A stretch of 64,000 nucleotides of DNA, taken from positions 1,302,001 to 1,366,000 of the forward strand of contig NZ_FQWU01000001.1 of the NCBI RefSeq assembly GCF_900129765.1. Direction: 5' to 3'. Below, piece by piece: positions 57,158 through 64,000 of this stretch. Numbering within the stretch: position 1 is the stretch's first letter; each line of letters opens with the position of its first letter. A program made the position numbers and the translations under genes. The notes under the pieces are model-generated. The model searched no databases, had not been told where the DNA came from, and worked only from the letters and a program-made list of their open reading frames with translations. Origin of the DNA: Massilia sp. CF038. Its GTDB lineage: Bacteria > Pseudomonadota > Gammaproteobacteria > Burkholderiales > Burkholderiaceae_D.

Positions 57158-57991
57158 GTGATGGGGGAGCATGTGTCAAGCGACGTATTGCTCCCTTTAA
57201 TTTGCTGCGATCCGGCCCGGCTATTTCTATATTATTATTCGCCCACATCAACAACGTCTGGCCGCTGGCCGGCATCGTACATGCTCACAGCGACCCCATC
57301 CGGTGAACTGACCTGCACGCACTGGCCAACAAGTGACTGCAAGATATTCCACACGCGCTTCGACCCGGCGCACTTTTCCCTGCTCCAGTTCGGTAATGCA
57401 GGCATCGACTTACCACCAAAAATCGCCACCGCCGTCCCCAAGCGGCAGGCTGAATTTTTCCATGGACGCTTGTGCGCGCAGGCTGCCTTGCGCGACGCCG
57501 GGGTGGCGCAAGGGCAAGTCGGCGTTGGCGCCCAGCGCGAGCCACTCTGGCCGCAGGGCATTGCGGGCAGCATTACCCATCACGGCGCCATGGCTGCAGC
57601 CGTTGTCCTTCCCGCAGCGCGCTGGGCCGGGGTGGGCATGGATGTGGAAACGGTTGGTTCGGGCCAGCAGTCGGCGGCGCTGCAAGAAACCATCATCATG
57701 CCGCGCGAACGCCTTGTGCTCGCCGCTCACGACAGCGCAATGGGCATGGACACGCTGCTGACCCTGGCGTTCTCAGCCAAGGAAAGCTTTTACAAAGGTA
57801 TCTATGGACTGGTTGGCCGTGTACTGGACTTTGACGTGATCTCGCTGATCGGCATTGAAGCGTCCACCGGCACACTCTGGTTTGAAGTGATGGAAGCGCT
57901 CGGCGGACTCTACCAGCCTGGTTACCGCTTCCAGGTGGCGTTTGCCGCCGAGGCGGGGCAAGTGATGACCCTCTTTCGCAGGGCCGCTTAA
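57158..57991 (+). CDS. Sfp/EntD-type 4'-phosphopantetheinyl transferase
   Basis: 277 aa from GTG 57158, or 236 aa if ATG 57281 is used; the shorter form fits the family length better because the first 41 residues have no similarity. The two signature motifs are present: GVGMDVE near residue 161 and FSAKESFYKG near 205. It activates carrier domains of nonribosomal peptide synthetases by adding phosphopantetheine, and is distinct from AcpS at 38097. It ends tail-to-tail with the porin gene (4-bp overlap) and faces the NRPS operon, whose carrier domain is its likely client. Confidence 0.92.
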   Translation: MMGEHVSSDVLLPLICCDPARLFLYYYSPTSTTSGRWPASYMLTATPSGELTCTHWPTSDCKIFHTRFDPAHFSLLQFGNAGIDLPPKIATAVPKRQAEFFHGRLCAQAALRDAGVAQGQVGVGAQREPLWPQGIAGSITHHGAMAAAVVLPAARWAGVGMDVETVGSGQQSAALQETIIMPRERLVLAAHDSAMGMDTLLTLAFSAKESFYKGIYGLVGRVLDFDVISLIGIEASTGTLWFEVMEALGGLYQPGYRFQVAFAAEAGQVMTLFRRAA

Positions 57992-59004
57992 AAGTTTTGG
58001 TTAAAGCCGACAATGAGGCTGCTGGTCGCGTCACCGTTCTCCACAGCCTCACTGAACGACAGCGCCGATGCCTGGCCATTTTTCAGCCGGGCCACACTAG
58101 CGTACGCTGCCACCGTCCTTGACAGGTTGTAGACATAGGCCACGCCCATCACAGTAGCCGTGTTGCCCACAACCGGCTTGCGCGACGTTTTCGCATAGTT
58201 CAACAGCACCTTGCTGTTGGGCGCAAACTGGTAGCCCATGCCCACGCTGTACTCGACCGTGCGCGCGCCGCTCTGCTTGAAATCGAGGTTTTGCAAGGCG
58301 GCAGTAAGCCGCACCTTACCGTTGTCGTAATTAAATCCAGTCAACAGAACGTCAACGTCGGGGTTGGCCAGCGAAAAGCGCTGATCGCGAATCGCTGTCA
58401 CGCCGACCCGCAAGCCTTTTCTCAGCTCGTAGGTGCCGGACAAAAACACTTGCTCGCCCTCGGGGAAACGCGCTGGATTGTCGTCGCGCTTGGCCACCAT
58501 CAGCTGCAGGTTCAGTGCATTGTCCGGCATGAACCAGCCTTGCACCGACACCGCCTTCGGAATACTCGAATAGCGCTGGCTGGCCTGGAAGATCGCGTAG
58601 GGCGTTCCCCAGAAGGCCGTGCCGAACACGTCGAATTCGTAGCCCATTTGCAGCATGTGCGGGGAAAATTGCCGCCCCAGCGACAGGCGCAGGTTCTTGC
58701 GCTGGATGGCCACGCTGGCGACCCGGTTGAACAGATTGTTGGGATCCATGCGCTCGCCCGTATCGGGCAGCAAACCAGCGCCCAGGGTGGTCAGGACGCG
58801 GGTCTCGTCGTCGATACGCTCTTCCGCGCGGATCACAAGCCGCGACACGGTTTCGCCGCTGCTATCGAGCTTGGTAACGGACTTGCCGGGCACGCGCGTG
58901 TGGTCCACATACAGGTCGACGGCGCCGCTGACCGTCACCGATGCCAGCGCTGGTGCAGCGCAGGCGGCGTACAAACAGGCGCCTCTGGCCAGCGCGCCTA
59001 GCAT
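57988..59004 (-). CDS. Outer membrane porin (betaproteobacterial general porin type)
   Basis: 338 aa. A signal peptide (about 1-21, ending ALAS) precedes SVTVSGAVDLYVDH, the usual start of Gram-negative porins of Burkholderiales. Alternating beta strands run through the rest and the protein ends in Phe (GFNQNF), the outer-membrane insertion signal. It is the last gene of the NRPS operon, overlapping the thioesterase stop by 7 bp. Inclusion in the operon suggests a role in product uptake or release; that is inference. Confidence 0.9.
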   Translation of the reverse strand: MLGALARGACLYAACAAPALASVTVSGAVDLYVDHTRVPGKSVTKLDSSGETVSRLVIRAEERIDDETRVLTTLGAGLLPDTGERMDPNNLFNRVASVAIQRKNLRLSLGRQFSPHMLQMGYEFDVFGTAFWGTPYAIFQASQRYSSIPKAVSVQGWFMPDNALNLQLMVAKRDDNPARFPEGEQVFLSGTYELRKGLRVGVTAIRDQRFSLANPDVDVLLTGFNYDNGKVRLTAALQNLDFKQSGARTVEYSVGMGYQFAPNSKVLLNYAKTSRKPVVGNTATVMGVAYVYNLSRTVAAYASVARLKNGQASALSFSEAVENGDATSSLIVGFNQNF

Positions 59005-59732
59005 GCCGCCTCCGCCGTCACTGATACGTGCGTGGCCAGATCGGCTTGCAGCGCTTCGAGCCAGAGGTCGTCGCCTGCGGGACCAAGCAGGAAGTGGCCC
59101 GCCTCCAGGCTACGCGAGAAAAACTGGCCGCTTTCCCGGCACCATGGCGCAGCATCAGCAGCGGAAATGGCCGGGTCGGCGCTGCCATGGTAGAGATAAA
59201 TCGGGCAGCGCAACGGCGCTTGCCGGGCCGCTTGCAGATAAGTTTCGCTGGCGCGCAGATCGGCACGAATCACGGGCAGGAACAAGTCCAGAAATTCCTC
59301 ATTCATGTTCGCTTCCAGACCATCGATCTGGCGCAGCTTGTCCAGCAGATGCTGCTGATCCATGGCGTGCCAGTTCAACACCGGCGCGGCCGTGGTGGGC
59401 GCGCGCTGGCTGGCCACGAACAGCGCCTCGACCTGGTGGCCGGCCGCCTCCAGCCGCGCGGCCAGATCGTAGGCCAGCAGCGCGCCGTAACTCAGGCCGG
59501 CGATTGCAATCCGCGTGCCTGCCAGTGCGCCAGCGAGCTGCTGCATCACTTCGTCGGTGACCGCGCTGACCTGCTCGTGCGGCAAATCCAGCAGACGGCC
59601 TTCACGGCCTGGCAGGATGGGTAACACCACCTTTACCTGGTCGGGCAGGCTGGCGCGCCAGCTGCGATAGCGCCCCATGCCGCCGCCGGCGTGGGGAAAA
59701 CATATTAAGGACAACGCGGTTGAATCAAGCAC
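58998..59732 (-). CDS. Type II thioesterase (NRPS-associated)
   Basis: 244 aa. LICFPHAGGGMGRYRSW near the start is the type II thioesterase signature. The nucleophile is Ser81 in AGLSYGAL (usually GHSMG), Asp186 is in HGSADPAI and His213 in EAGHFLL. Type II thioesterases remove wrong acyl groups from carrier domains. Since the NRPS end at 63282 has no thioesterase domain, this free enzyme might also take part in product release. Confidence 0.92.
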   Translation of the reverse strand: MLDSTALSLICFPHAGGGMGRYRSWRASLPDQVKVVLPILPGREGRLLDLPHEQVSAVTDEVMQQLAGALAGTRIAIAGLSYGALLAYDLAARLEAAGHQVEALFVASQRAPTTAAPVLNWHAMDQQHLLDKLRQIDGLEANMNEEFLDLFLPVIRADLRASETYLQAARQAPLRCPIYLYHGSADPAISAADAAPWCRESGQFFSRSLEAGHFLLGPAGDDLWLEALQADLATHVSVTAEAAC

Positions 59733-59780
59733 TTCGGGATACCTCGATCAAAATTGGAAAAGTACACGCTGCTGGCGTTG

Positions 59781-60986
59781 TTAGCGGGCCGGGCCCATCC
59801 AGCTCATCAGTTCGTCGAGCGCCTGGTAGAAACCGGCAATCTCGGCTGCGTCGTTGTACAGATACGCCGACACGCGCAGCGTCTCGCCGCCGGCCAGTTT
59901 GCTCACCAGCGGCTGCGCACACAGGTGGCCGCTGCGCACCATGTAGCCGTACGAGTCGCTCATCATCCTGGCCACTTCGCCGGCCACAATGCCATCGGCC
60001 AGGCGCAAGGTGGCAATGCCAATGCGCGCGTCGGTGCTGTGCGGGCCGATCAGACGCAGGTAATCGCGTTCCAGCGCCCCCTGCACCAGTGCGACGCAGT
60101 TATCCTGTTCGATGCGGTGGCGCTCCGGCGTATCGGTCGCGCGCAGGTAGCCGATCGCCGCCGCGCAGCCGATGACCGAGGCGATGGCAGGGGTGCCGGC
60201 CTCGAATTTGTGCGGTATGCGCCGCTCGACGCTGCCCTCCAGATCGACCCAGTCCACCATGCCGCCGCCAACTGCGAGCGGGCGCAAACCCGCCAGATGC
60301 GCGCTACGGCCGAACAGACAGCCAACACCGGTCGGCCCCAGCATTTTGTGCGGTGAAAATGCCATGAAGTCGACGTCCAGCGCAGACACGTCAATACGCT
60401 GGTGCGGCAGCGACTGCGCCGCGTCGAGCACGATGACTGCATCGCAGCAGGCGCGCACTTCGGCGATCAGCTCCTGTACCGGGTGGATGGCGCCCGTCAC
60501 GTTCGAACAGTGCGTCAGGGCCACCACCCTGGGCCGGTCGCGCAGCAGCTGGCGGAAGTGGGCGCGGTCGATTCGCCCTTGCTCGTCCACCTGCGTCAGC
60601 GCCAGCCGGCCGGCGCGGCGCCACGGCAGAATCTGCGAATGGTGCGCATCGAAGCAGCCCACAATGTAGGCATCCGGATTGAGCGTCAGGCCGCTGGCGA
60701 CCAGGTTCAGTGCTTCGGTCGTGTTGCGAGTGAAGACCACTTCGTTGGCGGCCGCCCCGATGTAGGCGGCAATTGCCACGCGCGCAGCCTCGTACGCGTC
60801 TGAAGCATCTTCCGACAGGCGGTGCTTGCCGCGATGGATATTGGCGCCGTTGAAGGCGTAGTAGTTGGTGACCGCATCGATCACGGCCTGCGGTTTGAGC
60901 GTGGTAGCGCCGTTATCGAGGTAGACGATGCGCTGGCCGTCAATGTCGCGGGCCAGTGCGGGAAAATCTTTGCGGAAGGGGTTCAT
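59781..60986 (-). CDS. SufS-like class V aminotransferase/cysteine desulfurase family enzyme
   Basis: 401 aa. The PLP-binding Lys214 is in FSPHKMLGPTG, and YLDNGATTLKPQAVIDA plus NIHRGKHRLSEDASDAYE are standard SufS-family segments. The desulfurase Cys356 is kept in VRSGHLCAQPL (compare RxGHHCAxP in SufS). No SufE, SufU or Fe-S genes are near. It overlaps the adenylating enzyme by 4 bp, so it belongs to the peptide operon. It may supply sulfur, or act as a lyase or aminotransferase on a tethered intermediate. Confidence 0.9.
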   Translation of the reverse strand: MNPFRKDFPALARDIDGQRIVYLDNGATTLKPQAVIDAVTNYYAFNGANIHRGKHRLSEDASDAYEAARVAIAAYIGAAANEVVFTRNTTEALNLVASGLTLNPDAYIVGCFDAHHSQILPWRRAGRLALTQVDEQGRIDRAHFRQLLRDRPRVVALTHCSNVTGAIHPVQELIAEVRACCDAVIVLDAAQSLPHQRIDVSALDVDFMAFSPHKMLGPTGVGCLFGRSAHLAGLRPLAVGGGMVDWVDLEGSVERRIPHKFEAGTPAIASVIGCAAAIGYLRATDTPERHRIEQDNCVALVQGALERDYLRLIGPHSTDARIGIATLRLADGIVAGEVARMMSDSYGYMVRSGHLCAQPLVSKLAGGETLRVSAYLYNDAAEIAGFYQALDELMSWMGPAR

Positions 60987-62269
60987 GCGCGCGTCTCCGC
61001 TGAAATATGCGACGTCACGGGCTGGAATTTGCCGCTGCGTTCGCAGGCGATGTAGTTGACTGCCTGTACCTGCAGTGGATTGGGGGCGAGCAGTGCAGTC
61101 ACGCGTTCCACCATGGCTGCCAGATCTCCGGCCTGCAGCTGCTCGTTGGCGATGTAGCGCAGATTGCAGGCGCCGCTCTTGTCCTGTTCCAGCTTCCAGA
61201 CATCAATACCTGGGGCGTCGCCCACTGCCGCATCCACCGCGCCGGGCGTGACGATGCGCCCGTCAGCCAGTTCGATCAGGTGTGTCGCGCGCCCTTCGAT
61301 GCGTACCAGCGGCAAATCGCTGCCGCAGCTGCATTTGCCAGGCAAAGGCGTGAACATGTCGCCGGTGGCGTAGCGGATGCGCGGCACCAGCGCGTCGTCA
61401 ATGGTGGTGACGATCAGCTGCCCGGCCTGGCCGGGCGCGACGGGATCACCGGCTGCATCGATGAACTCGACGTGAAAGTCGACGTCATTGATATGCCGCT
61501 GGCCATGATGGCATTCAAAGCCCAGGTAGCCGATTTCGGACATGCCGATCATGTCACCAATGGGGAAATCGGCGCCCAGGAAGGCTTCGATCTGGCGCCG
61601 CGCCACGCGGGTCATGAGCGTGTAGCCGGACACCAGGTGCAGCTTGCGCGGCGAGGCGATGCGGCGGCCCAGCTGCTGTGCGCGCCGGATCAGAAACGCG
61701 AAATGGGTCGGGTCCACCACCAGCAAGTCGGGTTCGTGCGCGGCGATTTCGTCCAGGGCCTTGATCACTTGCCACTCTGGGGTGGCCAAGACGTCATGCG
61801 CCACGGCCAGCACCAGGGTGCCGTCGGGCAGGGTGCGCTCCTCCATGGTCGAAAAGCCGGTCGCGCATTCAACGTCCGAGCAGTTGGGCGGCGCAAAGCG
61901 GCAGGTCTTGGGACGGCTGCCTGGGCGCCACAGCGTATCGAAGCGGCGGTTCACGCCCAGCGCGGTGGCCTGGCGGCGCGACAGGTCGAACGACAGGATC
62001 GCACTGTTCAGGCGTTCGCCCGAGGTCCCCGAACTTTGAAAGCGCATCACGTGCGGCGAATTGAGTGTGTAGCCGCGCGCCAGCACGCCGGCCGGGAAAT
62101 TGCGCCGGTAGTGGGGCTTGGAAGTGGGCGGAATGCGCCGGAAATCGTCCAGGCTGCGGATCTCGTCCACGGCAATGCCGCTCGCTTCCATGTGCTTGCG
62201 GAAGAAGACGGTGTGTTCAAACGCGTAGGTGATTTCCTCGCGTACTGCTTCAAATTGCGCGTTATTCAT
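60983..62269 (-). CDS. PaaK-like adenylate-forming enzyme
   Basis: 428 aa from ATG 62269 (MNNAQFEAVREEITYAFEHT). The AMP-binding P-loop SSGTSGE is at 79-85. GMSEIGYLGFECHHGQRHIN, RYATGD and CSCGSDLPLVRIEGR resemble phenylacetate-CoA ligase and related acyl-adenylating enzymes, and the Cys-rich segment CSCGSDLP is shared with the PaaK branch. It overlaps the SyrP-like gene and the SufS-like gene by 4 bp each. The substrate is unknown. Confidence 0.87.
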   Translation of the reverse strand: MNNAQFEAVREEITYAFEHTVFFRKHMEASGIAVDEIRSLDDFRRIPPTSKPHYRRNFPAGVLARGYTLNSPHVMRFQSSGTSGERLNSAILSFDLSRRQATALGVNRRFDTLWRPGSRPKTCRFAPPNCSDVECATGFSTMEERTLPDGTLVLAVAHDVLATPEWQVIKALDEIAAHEPDLLVVDPTHFAFLIRRAQQLGRRIASPRKLHLVSGYTLMTRVARRQIEAFLGADFPIGDMIGMSEIGYLGFECHHGQRHINDVDFHVEFIDAAGDPVAPGQAGQLIVTTIDDALVPRIRYATGDMFTPLPGKCSCGSDLPLVRIEGRATHLIELADGRIVTPGAVDAAVGDAPGIDVWKLEQDKSGACNLRYIANEQLQAGDLAAMVERVTALLAPNPLQVQAVNYIACERSGKFQPVTSHISAETRA

Positions 62270-63285
62270 GTCATTGCTACCAGAATCGAGCGCGGGCCGG
62301 TGTAAGGGCGGCGGCCGTGCGCAAATTGTTCGTTGTCGACGACGACCACGTCGCCGGCCTGCCAGGGCGTCGCGATCTCCTCGGCCTTGTAGGCGGCGCG
62401 GATGTCCGCCAGCTCGTGCGCCGTGAACGGCGTGCCGTCGCCATGCATGGCGTTGCGCGGCAGCTCGTCCTCGGCGAAGTCGGCCCGCAGTTCCTGCTCC
62501 ACCTCGTGCGGCAGGGAACTGACGTGGAACAGGTGGCCCTGATTGAACCAGACCCGCTCCCCGGTGGCCTGGCACAACAGGCTGGCCTGCACCACATGGC
62601 GCGTACGCAATCGTTCGCCGCCCAGCCATTCAGCGGCAATGCCGTGCGCTTTGCAGTAGGCATCGACCTGGCTGCGGTCGCTGGTCTGGAAGACTTCTTG
62701 CCAGCTCAGGTCCAGACCCAGTCCGAAATTGCGCACGTACATGACGCCGTCGCGCTCGAAGCGTTCCCGCACGTCCGGCGCAATGCGTGCATACACGCGC
62801 GCGCTGTCGGCCAGTGGCGTTTCGCCGCCCGTGACCGAAGGCTGCACGCAGGCCAGGAACAGCAGCGCCGGCCAGGCGTCGGTGTACGACATCTCGTTGT
62901 GCATCGGGATGGTCTGGTCGGCCGGGTATTCGGTGGAGGTGAACACGCGCCCGCTTACCTGGGTGCGTGGCGTGGAGCGGTTGTCGTACTCGCGCAGCGC
63001 GCCCGCATGCAGCGTGGCCAGCTCGCCCAGCCCTGCGGCATCGAGCGCGCCAAAGCCGCGCAGCAGCACCGCGCCGCGCTCCTTGAGGAGGCGGCCCAGC
63101 AAGCCATCGGCACGGCGCAGCCAGTCGCGCGCGTCCATCCCGGGAATGGTTGGCGTGCACAAGGCGATGCGTGAGCCCTCCTGCAGTGCGCTCACGCGCA
63201 CCAGCTCCCCGCTGCCAACGGCGATGGCCTGGCGCCGTCCGGCAAACGGGGTGGCGCGTGGGGCGGCGACCGAATCGGCGCTCAT
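62266..63285 (-). CDS. SyrP-like Fe(II)/2-oxoglutarate-dependent hydroxylase
   Basis: 339 aa, TauD/TfdA superfamily. Iron ligands His129 and Glu131 are in IPMHNEMSY, and the distal His323 is in AHGRRPYTGPRS, where the Arg binds 2-oxoglutarate. STPRTQVSGRVFTSTEYPAD and VWFNQGHLFHVSSL match SyrP, the syringomycin aspartyl beta-hydroxylase that acts on carrier-bound amino acids. The Glu in place of Asp is normal for that branch. It overlaps the NRPS stop by 4 bp. Confidence 0.9.
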   Translation of the reverse strand: MSADSVAAPRATPFAGRRQAIAVGSGELVRVSALQEGSRIALCTPTIPGMDARDWLRRADGLLGRLLKERGAVLLRGFGALDAAGLGELATLHAGALREYDNRSTPRTQVSGRVFTSTEYPADQTIPMHNEMSYTDAWPALLFLACVQPSVTGGETPLADSARVYARIAPDVRERFERDGVMYVRNFGLGLDLSWQEVFQTSDRSQVDAYCKAHGIAAEWLGGERLRTRHVVQASLLCQATGERVWFNQGHLFHVSSLPHEVEQELRADFAEDELPRNAMHGDGTPFTAHELADIRAAYKAEEIATPWQAGDVVVVDNEQFAHGRRPYTGPRSILVAMT

Positions 63286-64000
63286 GCTTGCCCCGCTTTC
63301 GCAGCCACGCGCGCGTCAATCAGCTCGGCCAGTTCCGACACGACGGAGCGCTCGAACAGGCTACGCAGCTTCAGATCAATCTGGAAGGCTTTGCGCAGGC
63401 GCGCGATCAGCTGCGTCGCCAGCAGCGAGTGTCCGCCGATATCAAAGAAATCATCCTCGGCGCCCACCCGCTTGAGCAGCAGCAGCTCGGCGATGATGCC
63501 GGCAAGCGCCGTTTCGGTCGGGGTGCGCGGTTCCACATATGGCTGGCCGCTGTCGCCGACGGCACCGGGTTCGGGCAGCATGGCGGCGTCAATTTTGCCT
63601 GCGCTGGTCAGCGGGAAGCGGTCGAGCGCGACAAAATGCGTGGGAATCATGAAGTCCGGCAGATGCTCGGACATGAAGCTGCGCAGCCAGTCTGCATTGC
63701 CGCGCGAGCCTTCCGCGTCCACCAGGTAGCCAACGATGTGGGTGGCGCTGCTTTCGCCAGCTTCAATGGCCAGACTGGCGCTCACGCGCGGATGCAGGCG
63801 CATCACCGCTTCAATCTCGCCCAGTTCCACACGGAAGCCGCGCACCTTGACCTGGCGGTCGATCCGGCCCAGGAATTCGATGCTGCCATCGGGCAGATGA
63901 CGCACCCGGTCGCCCGAGCGGTACATGCGCGCACCGGCTGTCTGACTGAACGGATCGGCGAAGAAGCGCTCGGCCTGGCCTTCGCGCTGACTCAGGTAGC
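63282..64000 (-). CDS. NRPS C-terminus: adenylation domain end plus carrier domain (cut by window edge)
   Basis: At least 238 codons; the gene continues beyond the right edge. Adenylation motifs A7 (MYRSGDRV), A8 (FLGRIDRQVKVRGFRVELGE), A9 (LPDFMIP) and A10 (TSAGKID) are followed by a carrier domain with DDFFDIGGHSLLATQL, where Ser takes the phosphopantetheine. The protein ends about 40 residues after the carrier domain with no thioesterase, reductase or condensation domain. The substrate code lies outside the window. The free thioesterase at 58998 and the PPTase at 57158 serve this enzyme by inference. Confidence 0.95.
   Translation of the reverse strand, partial: YLSQREGQAERFFADPFSQTAGARMYRSGDRVRHLPDGSIEFLGRIDRQVKVRGFRVELGEIEAVMRLHPRVSASLAIEAGESSATHIVGYLVDAEGSRGNADWLRSFMSEHLPDFMIPTHFVALDRFPLTSAGKIDAAMLPEPGAVGDSGQPYVEPRTPTETALAGIIAELLLLKRVGAEDDFFDIGGHSLLATQLIARLRKAFQIDLKLRSLFERSVVSELAELIDARVAAKAGQA

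Follow-up and report, generated by a model that had tools for sequence, protein, structure and literature searches.

A PaaK-like/SufS-like enzyme pair of nonribosomal peptide gene clusters as a candidate sulfur-transfer system for thiocarboxylate formation

A gene cluster at the end of a 64,000-nucleotide stretch of the Massilia sp. CF038 genome (contig NZ_FQWU01000001.1, positions 1,302,001 to 1,366,000; hereafter the window) encodes, beside nonribosomal peptide synthetases (NRPSs), a PaaK-like adenylate-forming enzyme and a SufS-like enzyme, which we propose to be a dedicated two-enzyme sulfur-transfer pair giving a thiocarboxylate. We put the probability of this reading, which is drawn from sequence comparison, at about 0.45. 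A sequence-only reading of positions 57158-64000 had already pointed to these genes, and open reading frames (ORFs) and family matches confirmed them together with their strands, their families and their joins by ATGA overlaps. The PaaK-like and NRPS genes were present as described, but the listed 548-amino-acid (aa) PaaK ORF proved over-extended, its start being corrected to 62269, where an ATG overlaps the stop of the SyrP-like gene and gives a protein of 428 aa, and what had been taken for the end of an NRPS belongs to a separate 1038-aa module.

The PaaK-like protein was scanned against 84,980 species genomes using six seed peptides, resulting in 48 stretches and 40 confirmed relatives, which are spread over Actinomycetota, Gammaproteobacteria and Corallococcus. 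The SufS-like gene lies on the same strand downstream of the PaaK-like gene in 40/40 loci, directly in 39 and after a SyrP gene in one, and the gap between the two matches is 11-99 bp in 38 loci; L047, with broken frames, has 304 bp, and L060, with the SyrP gene in between, has 1101 bp. The closest PaaK-like proteins are those of Streptomyces, Kitasatospora, Spongiactinospora and Actinokineospora (69-76% identity, 11 aligned), followed by that of Serratia sp. PL17 (58%) and then by those of Pseudoalteromonas, Microbulbifer, Marinibactrum, Corallococcus and others (35-50%). Because PNCSDVEC, a motif of the PaaK-like protein, was one of the six seed peptides, the search was repeated by profile; the Streptomyces and two order samples were subsets of larger groups, and among the matches listed no genome had more than four candidates scored. 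Matches were found in 6 of 392 genomes of the Streptomyces genus sample, three of them new and all three with PNCSDVEC and a SufS-like neighbour, and in one of the two genomes, already known, of another relative's genus. Within the order to which the Pseudoalteromonas locus belongs, 4/394 genomes matched (3 already known and 1 partial match without the motif), and the host's own order gave 8/399, with full length only in its own genome and the other 7 matching from residue 164 or later. The 40/40 co-occurrence makes a chance grouping very unlikely and, along with the 3/3 further profile loci, supports a pairing of the two genes that is not accidental. In the 29/40 loci having usable rows for both proteins plus a housekeeping SufS, the pairwise distances of the PaaK-like and SufS-like proteins were correlated with an r of 0.97 (partial 0.96), whereas each against the housekeeping SufS gave 0.56 and 0.55.

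The best solved relatives of the SufS-like protein are SufS-type cysteine desulfurases (E values of 1e-82 to 1e-83), and its score is under the cut-off of TIGR01979 (391.5 vs 475.1 bits), with relatives reaching 376.3 (L037), 400.4 (L044), 328.9 (L065) and 392.4 bits (L054). Phylogeny had been named beforehand as the test for a housekeeping SufS moved here by chance. In a tree of 72 rows, comprising 40 cassette rows (the window and 39 loci), 30 SufS loci from the relatives' genomes and SufS and CsdA of E. coli, one branch with a support of 100/100 splits the 40 cassette rows from the 32 SufS/CsdA rows, with long branches, including EcCsdA, being flagged; the SufS-like protein thus stands apart from the housekeeping enzymes, contrary to such a chance move. 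The residues H123, K226, R359, C364 and R379 (E. coli SufS numbering) are kept in 40/40 cassette and 32/32 reference rows, and H362 in 34/40 and 31/32, respectively. The cassette clade is distinguished from the reference rows by 20 clade-specific columns, including C160, G242, W246 and R255. In the host genome, the SufS-like gene is the sole SufS-type gene found, two further matches being partial and 30-31% identical, and a search for SufE (PF02657), which left SufU outside its scope, gave 0 matches there while 5 of 14 control genomes were positive. Between the sulfur donor and the pyridoxal 5'-phosphate (PLP) lyase that had been offered earlier as options, the former is likelier and the latter less likely, since the tested active-site residues are kept, and we infer that the protein is a dedicated cysteine desulfurase.

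The PaaK-like protein scores far under the PaaK cut-offs (75.6 vs 646.3 bits for TIGR02155 and 98.7 vs 700 bits for NF041878, both for the over-extended 548-aa frame), and four relatives gave 41-80 and 75-89 bits, respectively. Across 40 PaaK-like rows, the adenylate-forming residues S79, S80, G81, R299, Y300, D304, G413 and K414 are invariant and T82 and T302 occur in at least 90%; we take the SSGT loop, RYxTxD and the C-terminal GK to have their usual roles in adenylation. The AlphaFold model has a PaaK-type fold with an overall pLDDT of 92.3, and its fold matches are headed by PaaK-type enzymes (PaaK1, E 6e-25, TM 0.70). Among the four alignments listed, the profile match to solved PaaK-type enzymes ends at residues 86-97 and restarts at 170-172, and PNCSDVEC (residues 128-135) lies inside this stretch not aligned to the PaaK acyl-pocket segment. 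The motif is present in 41/41 of the scanned PaaK-like family, a count biased by the seeds, and in 0/22 ordinary PaaK-like loci and 0/30 housekeeping SufS loci; the SufS motif RxGHxCAQP was likewise seen in none of the 22 ordinary PaaK-like loci (3.6-4.2 kb each).

In the mechanism that we propose, the SufS-like enzyme would abstract sulfur from L-cysteine and carry it as a persulfide at its active-site Cys, and the PaaK-like enzyme would turn a carboxylate into an acyl-adenylate using ATP, both steps being suggested by the intact residues. The sulfur would then be passed on, probably via the conserved cysteine pair of PNCSDVEC, so that a thiocarboxylate results. The sequence-only reading had named a thioacid, a thioester or a thioamide as the group that could be formed, among which we favour the thiocarboxylate. 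The likely substrate here would be the side-chain or terminal carboxylate of beta-hydroxy-Asp, which the SyrP-like hydroxylase would build on a stand-alone Asp module and which is predicted to be joined to the chain from a polyketide synthase (PKS)-NRPS line, and a CysE-type gene would feed cysteine to both uses. The end product could, speculatively, be a sulfur-rich peptide having a thioacid-derived group for soft-metal binding or thiol reaction. A broader proposal appears doubtful, namely, that the PaaK-like enzyme is a thioacid synthase of a new type, a member of the ANL superfamily with PNCSDVEC as a built-in relay that receives sulfur straight from its SufS-like partner without a ubiquitin-like carrier and yields beta-hydroxy-thioaspartate or other thiocarboxylate peptides in Actinomycetota, Pseudomonadota and Myxococcota.

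The assembly line has the domain order ketosynthase (KS)-acyltransferase (AT)-carrier-heterocyclization (Cy)-adenylation (A)-carrier (T)-condensation (C), then A-T-C-A-T and then [C-like]-A-T, with the motifs ACSTS in KS, GHSIG in AT and DLLITDAWS in Cy. The A-domain codes along the predicted line are DLYNMSLIWK, DLFNNALTYK, DLYDFSLIWK and DLTKVGHVGK, which are assigned to Cys, Ala, Cys-like and Asp, in this order, and the line before the Asp module is predicted to be KS-AT-carrier / thiazoline-forming Cys / Ala / Cys-like. The C-type domain of the Asp module has lost HHxxxDG, the window copy reading SAARMSVDT, and the motif is missing in 13/13 copies read (the window and L032-L043, the L036 copy being in two pieces, one unreadable); it may be a pseudo-condensation or hydroxylase-docking domain. 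The Asp module may be a stand-alone loader, in which case formation of the Cys-Asp bond is not explained by any canonical C domain of the cluster. The SyrP-like protein belongs to the TauD/TfdA family, its partner A domain bears the code DLTKVGHVGK, and it is a putative beta-hydroxylase of carrier-bound Asp. The three NRPS proteins showed no type I thioesterase, the only thioesterase in the cluster being the type II enzyme.

The DUF6817 gene, the Asp module and the SyrP, PaaK-like and SufS-like genes occur together in 12/40 loci (L032-L043). The Serratia NRPS line is as in the window (KS-AT-T-Cy-A(Cys)-T-C-A(Ala)-T-C-A(Cys)-T, DUF6817, C-like-A(Asp)-T, SyrP, PaaK-like, SufS-like, CysE), and upstream of it are genes for a major facilitator superfamily (MFS) protein and a type II thioesterase; neither the porin nor the phosphopantetheinyl transferase was seen in this cluster. 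A SyrP- or CmlA-type beta-hydroxylase was found in the DNA examined of 29/40 loci (CmlA by Pfam for two representatives). L065, L068 and L071 are small sets consisting of a PLP fold-II (PALP) enzyme, the PaaK-like and SufS-like enzymes, A-T or A, SyrP, an EamA transporter and a thioesterase, and their A-domain code (L065:8938-17200, L068, L071) is DFWHYGQVDK. These small sets suggest that the pair acts on an amino acid made on a carrier; the product of the pair there is possibly amino-acid-sized. An NRPS protein with a thioesterase-like GxSxG tail was present in 6/11 loci examined (L055, L056, L057, L060, L063, L069), and release in those six need not involve the pair because the NRPS has its own thioesterase-like tail.

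In comparison with known systems, the SufS-like protein resembles the SufS/CsdA type II cysteine desulfurases in sequence family and in all five tested active-site residues, whereas it differs in its separate clade, its 20 diagnostic columns, the lack of a SufE match in the genome and its fixed PaaK-like partner. The PaaK-like protein shares the fold, the ATP loop, the C-terminal residues and the CxCG cysteines, presumably zinc-related, with the PaaK family (PaaK1, NatL2, AjiA1, ClxA), but residues about 98-170 do not align, PNCSDVEC standing there instead, and its SufS-like partner is fixed. Carboxylate adenylation followed by transfer of persulfide sulfur is known from ThiF/ThiS with IscS and from thioquinolobactin, thioplatensimycin and pyridine-2,6-dithiocarboxylic acid, and involves a small sulfur-carrier protein or an E1-type enzyme; the chemistry proposed for the pair would be alike, but neither a sulfur carrier nor an E1-type enzyme is found in the operon. 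The proposed chemistry would thus have a precedent in the E1/IscS systems and, in spirit, in StuS/StuJ and CtaC. The SH domains of the leinamycin family are not known to have an adenylating partner. The thiotetronate enzymes StuS/StuJ likewise combine a cysteine desulfurase with an ATP-using partner needed for sulfur insertion, although this partner is thiouridylase-like rather than PaaK-like and their genes are at a separate locus (PMC5518548); CtaC, an AANH-family Fe-S enzyme, inserts sulfur into a carrier-bound nonribosomal peptide at the expense of ATP, the closthioamide cluster reportedly having no sulfur-mobilising enzyme (PMC6772006); and the leinamycin-family SH domain is, like the SufS-like protein, a PLP enzyme for sulfur in an assembly line, but sits inside the PKS and cleaves a thiocysteine adduct (PMC8479088).

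Several points weigh against the sulfur-transfer reading. Its chemistry is deduced from sequence and the pair has no known product, and the sulfur may pass through only transiently and not remain in the product. The PaaK-like protein had no Pfam match at E 0.001, not even to AMP-binding, so that its putative adenylation activity is argued from NCBIfam, PDB and fold matches. The motif loop is the less confident part of the model (block means of 80 for residues 121-130 and 62 for 131-140), and PNCSDVEC was among the six seed patterns, so that its invariance in the scan is biased, a bias absent only from the three new profile finds. The correlated distances indicate joint inheritance, not contact, and any neighbouring genes can show the same. 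No beta-hydroxylase was seen in the DNA examined of 11/40 loci (L048-L053, L056, L057, L059, L066, L067), some of which are on short contigs. The acid substrate appears to be the weakest link of the mechanism because the A-domain codes adjoining the pair differ among groups, and a shared Asp substrate is therefore not shown.

The same residues and neighbours bear on other explanations. The SufS-like enzyme could be a PLP lyase or a C-C bond enzyme that acts, in the manner of UstD/FGM3, on a hydroxylated amino acid, with the PaaK-like enzyme supplying the acyl partner. UstD and FGM3, which are solved class V relatives with chemistry other than that of a desulfurase, are matched at E about 1e-25, and the 20 clade-specific columns also favour this idea; we nevertheless consider it improbable, given the far better matches to SufS-type desulfurases and the persulfide Cys, His, Lys and two Arg kept in 40/40. 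It is also unlikely that the PaaK-like protein is an ordinary acyl-CoA/acyl-carrier ligase making a starter or an ester, with the SufS-like enzyme only raising the sulfur supply and no molecule in common. PaaK and PaaK-type ligases are its closest solved folds, among which NatL2 and AjiA1 form esters or amides, and the first PKS module of the cluster has no loading module before it. The acyl-pocket stretch, however, is unaligned to PaaK, the pair is kept together across phyla, and it is present in loci without KS or AT found in the DNA examined (e.g. L065, L068, L071) as well as in L032 and L033, which have NRPS modules before KS.

A further idea is that the Fe-S cluster SufS of the host itself has landed in the operon as the SufS-like gene; this might be argued from its being the only SufS-type gene found in the genome, but is very improbable in light of its position in the cassette clade, its score under the SufS cut-off, the absence of a SufE match and the G+C content of the cluster (66.0% vs 60.5% for window 1-55000). 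Moreover, the 38 genomes behind 39/40 loci (L052 not given) each have at least two SufS-type matches, one of them above the SufS cut-off in 36/38. A somewhat unlikely case is that a transient thiocarboxylate serves as the sulfur donor for another step (a thiazoline, a thiolactone or a beta-mercapto residue) and the product contains no thioacid. The NRPS lines that occur with the pair differ widely, among them a Streptomyces line with HPPD-like and type III PKS-like genes (by eye) and Pseudoalteromonas, Microbulbifer and Marinibactrum lines with sulfotransferase and penicillin acylase, which would fit a donor role, whereas clustering of ORFs of at least 70 aa and a seed search gave no acceptor or cyclase family common to all loci. 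We retain the dedicated sulfur-transfer pair as the preferred reading.

The cluster, traced beyond position 64000, continues past the window end up to window-equivalent 81796 (Table 1), and the extension proposed in the sequence-only reading yielded the DUF6817 gene plus two large NRPS and PKS-NRPS genes. ATGA overlaps join NRPS/SyrP, SyrP/PaaK and PaaK/SufS, 48 bp separate the SufS-like stop from the thioesterase start, and the thioesterase stop overlaps the porin start. As neighbouring genes from the porin through the acetyltransferase overlap or have gaps of at most 67 bp, the operon has no room for an extra carrier-protein gene; the sulfur carrier protein that the earlier reading had advised looking for was not there, no ThiS/CysO-like gene being found from porin to acetyltransferase, the part of the genome searched for carriers. 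The cluster was probably acquired horizontally, judging from its G+C content, its rarity among the host's kin and the close Streptomyces copies.

Table 1. Genes of the cluster; window-equivalent coordinates continue the numbering of the window past its end.
Feature	Position	Strand	Support
Sfp/EntD-type 4'-phosphopantetheinyl transferase (PPTase), faces operon	57158..57991	+	Pfam 4PPT_N E 5.5e-23, ACPS E 3.8e-9; FSAKE motif
Gram-negative porin, operon's last gene	57988..59004	-	Porin_4 E 8.1e-26
Type II thioesterase	58998..59732	-	Thioesterase E 6e-30; GLSYG
SufS-like enzyme, 401 aa, cassette clade	59781..60986	-	Aminotran_5 E 3e-101
PaaK-like adenylate-forming enzyme, 428 aa, PNCSDVEC motif	60983..62269	-	NCBIfam PaaK-type models E 1e-28 to 1e-21
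SyrP-like Fe(II)/2-oxoglutarate beta-hydroxylase (putative)	62266..63285	-	TauD (PF02668) E 4.8e-38
NRPS module, separate protein of 1038 aa	63282-66398 (window holds C-terminal part, 63282..64000)	-	C-type domain without HHxxxDG, A domain DLTKVGHVGK, carrier domain
DUF6817 protein, 196 aa	window-equivalent 66374-66964	-	
NRPS	window-equivalent 66965-71947	-	
PKS-NRPS	window-equivalent 71944-79539	-	
Bcr/CflA-type MFS exporter	window-equivalent 79573-80805	-	177.7 bits vs cut-off 200.9
CysE-type serine acetyltransferase	window-equivalent 80873-81796	-	

Some further observations concern the neighbours of the pair. The DUF6817 protein has the look of an RSH/SAH-type HD fold, but HG replaces HD, and all 13 sequences compared share H17, H21, H29, H53, H62, D64 and D142. 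The CysE-type gene, which is also in the Serratia cluster, could serve to supply cysteine or, with lower likelihood, be a resistant copy of a target. In Pseudoalteromonas luteoviolacea H33-S (L066:8035-13879), the pair is flanked on one side by a type III PKS gene (by Pfam; DpgA-like by eye) together with an enoyl-CoA-hydratase-type gene and on the other by a second gene of this type. The Streptomyces cassette (L138, L142-L145; G428:C1:7020700-7120200) stands beside an 11,061-aa NRPS reading frame and a CmlA-type hydroxylase; at this locus, the HPPD-like and type III PKS-like genes were recognised by eye, and Asp is one of nine A-domain codes read. The cassettes of L046:885-12150, L044, L045 and L070 are accompanied by penicillin acylase, sulfotransferase, a CmlA-type hydroxylase and a start of the AMP-binding type that by eye resembles a fatty-acyl-AMP ligase, a set that may point to an acylated pro-form with later trimming.

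Each of the enzyme families involved is already known, and what we have not found described is the pair, its clade and its motif, for none of which a description appeared in the full-text literature searched, which is thin in subscription journals; nor did any paper in that literature describe the gene combination, in agreement with the earlier statement that it matched no described product. If the sulfur-transfer reading is true, the pair would represent a carrier-free bacterial route to thiocarboxylic acids. It would also provide a two-gene marker for sulfur-rich peptides, which would appear in routine annotation as no more than a ligase plus an aminotransferase. The occurrence of the pair in 43 loci besides the window would then offer a testable claim involving two cysteines, two enzymes and one acid.

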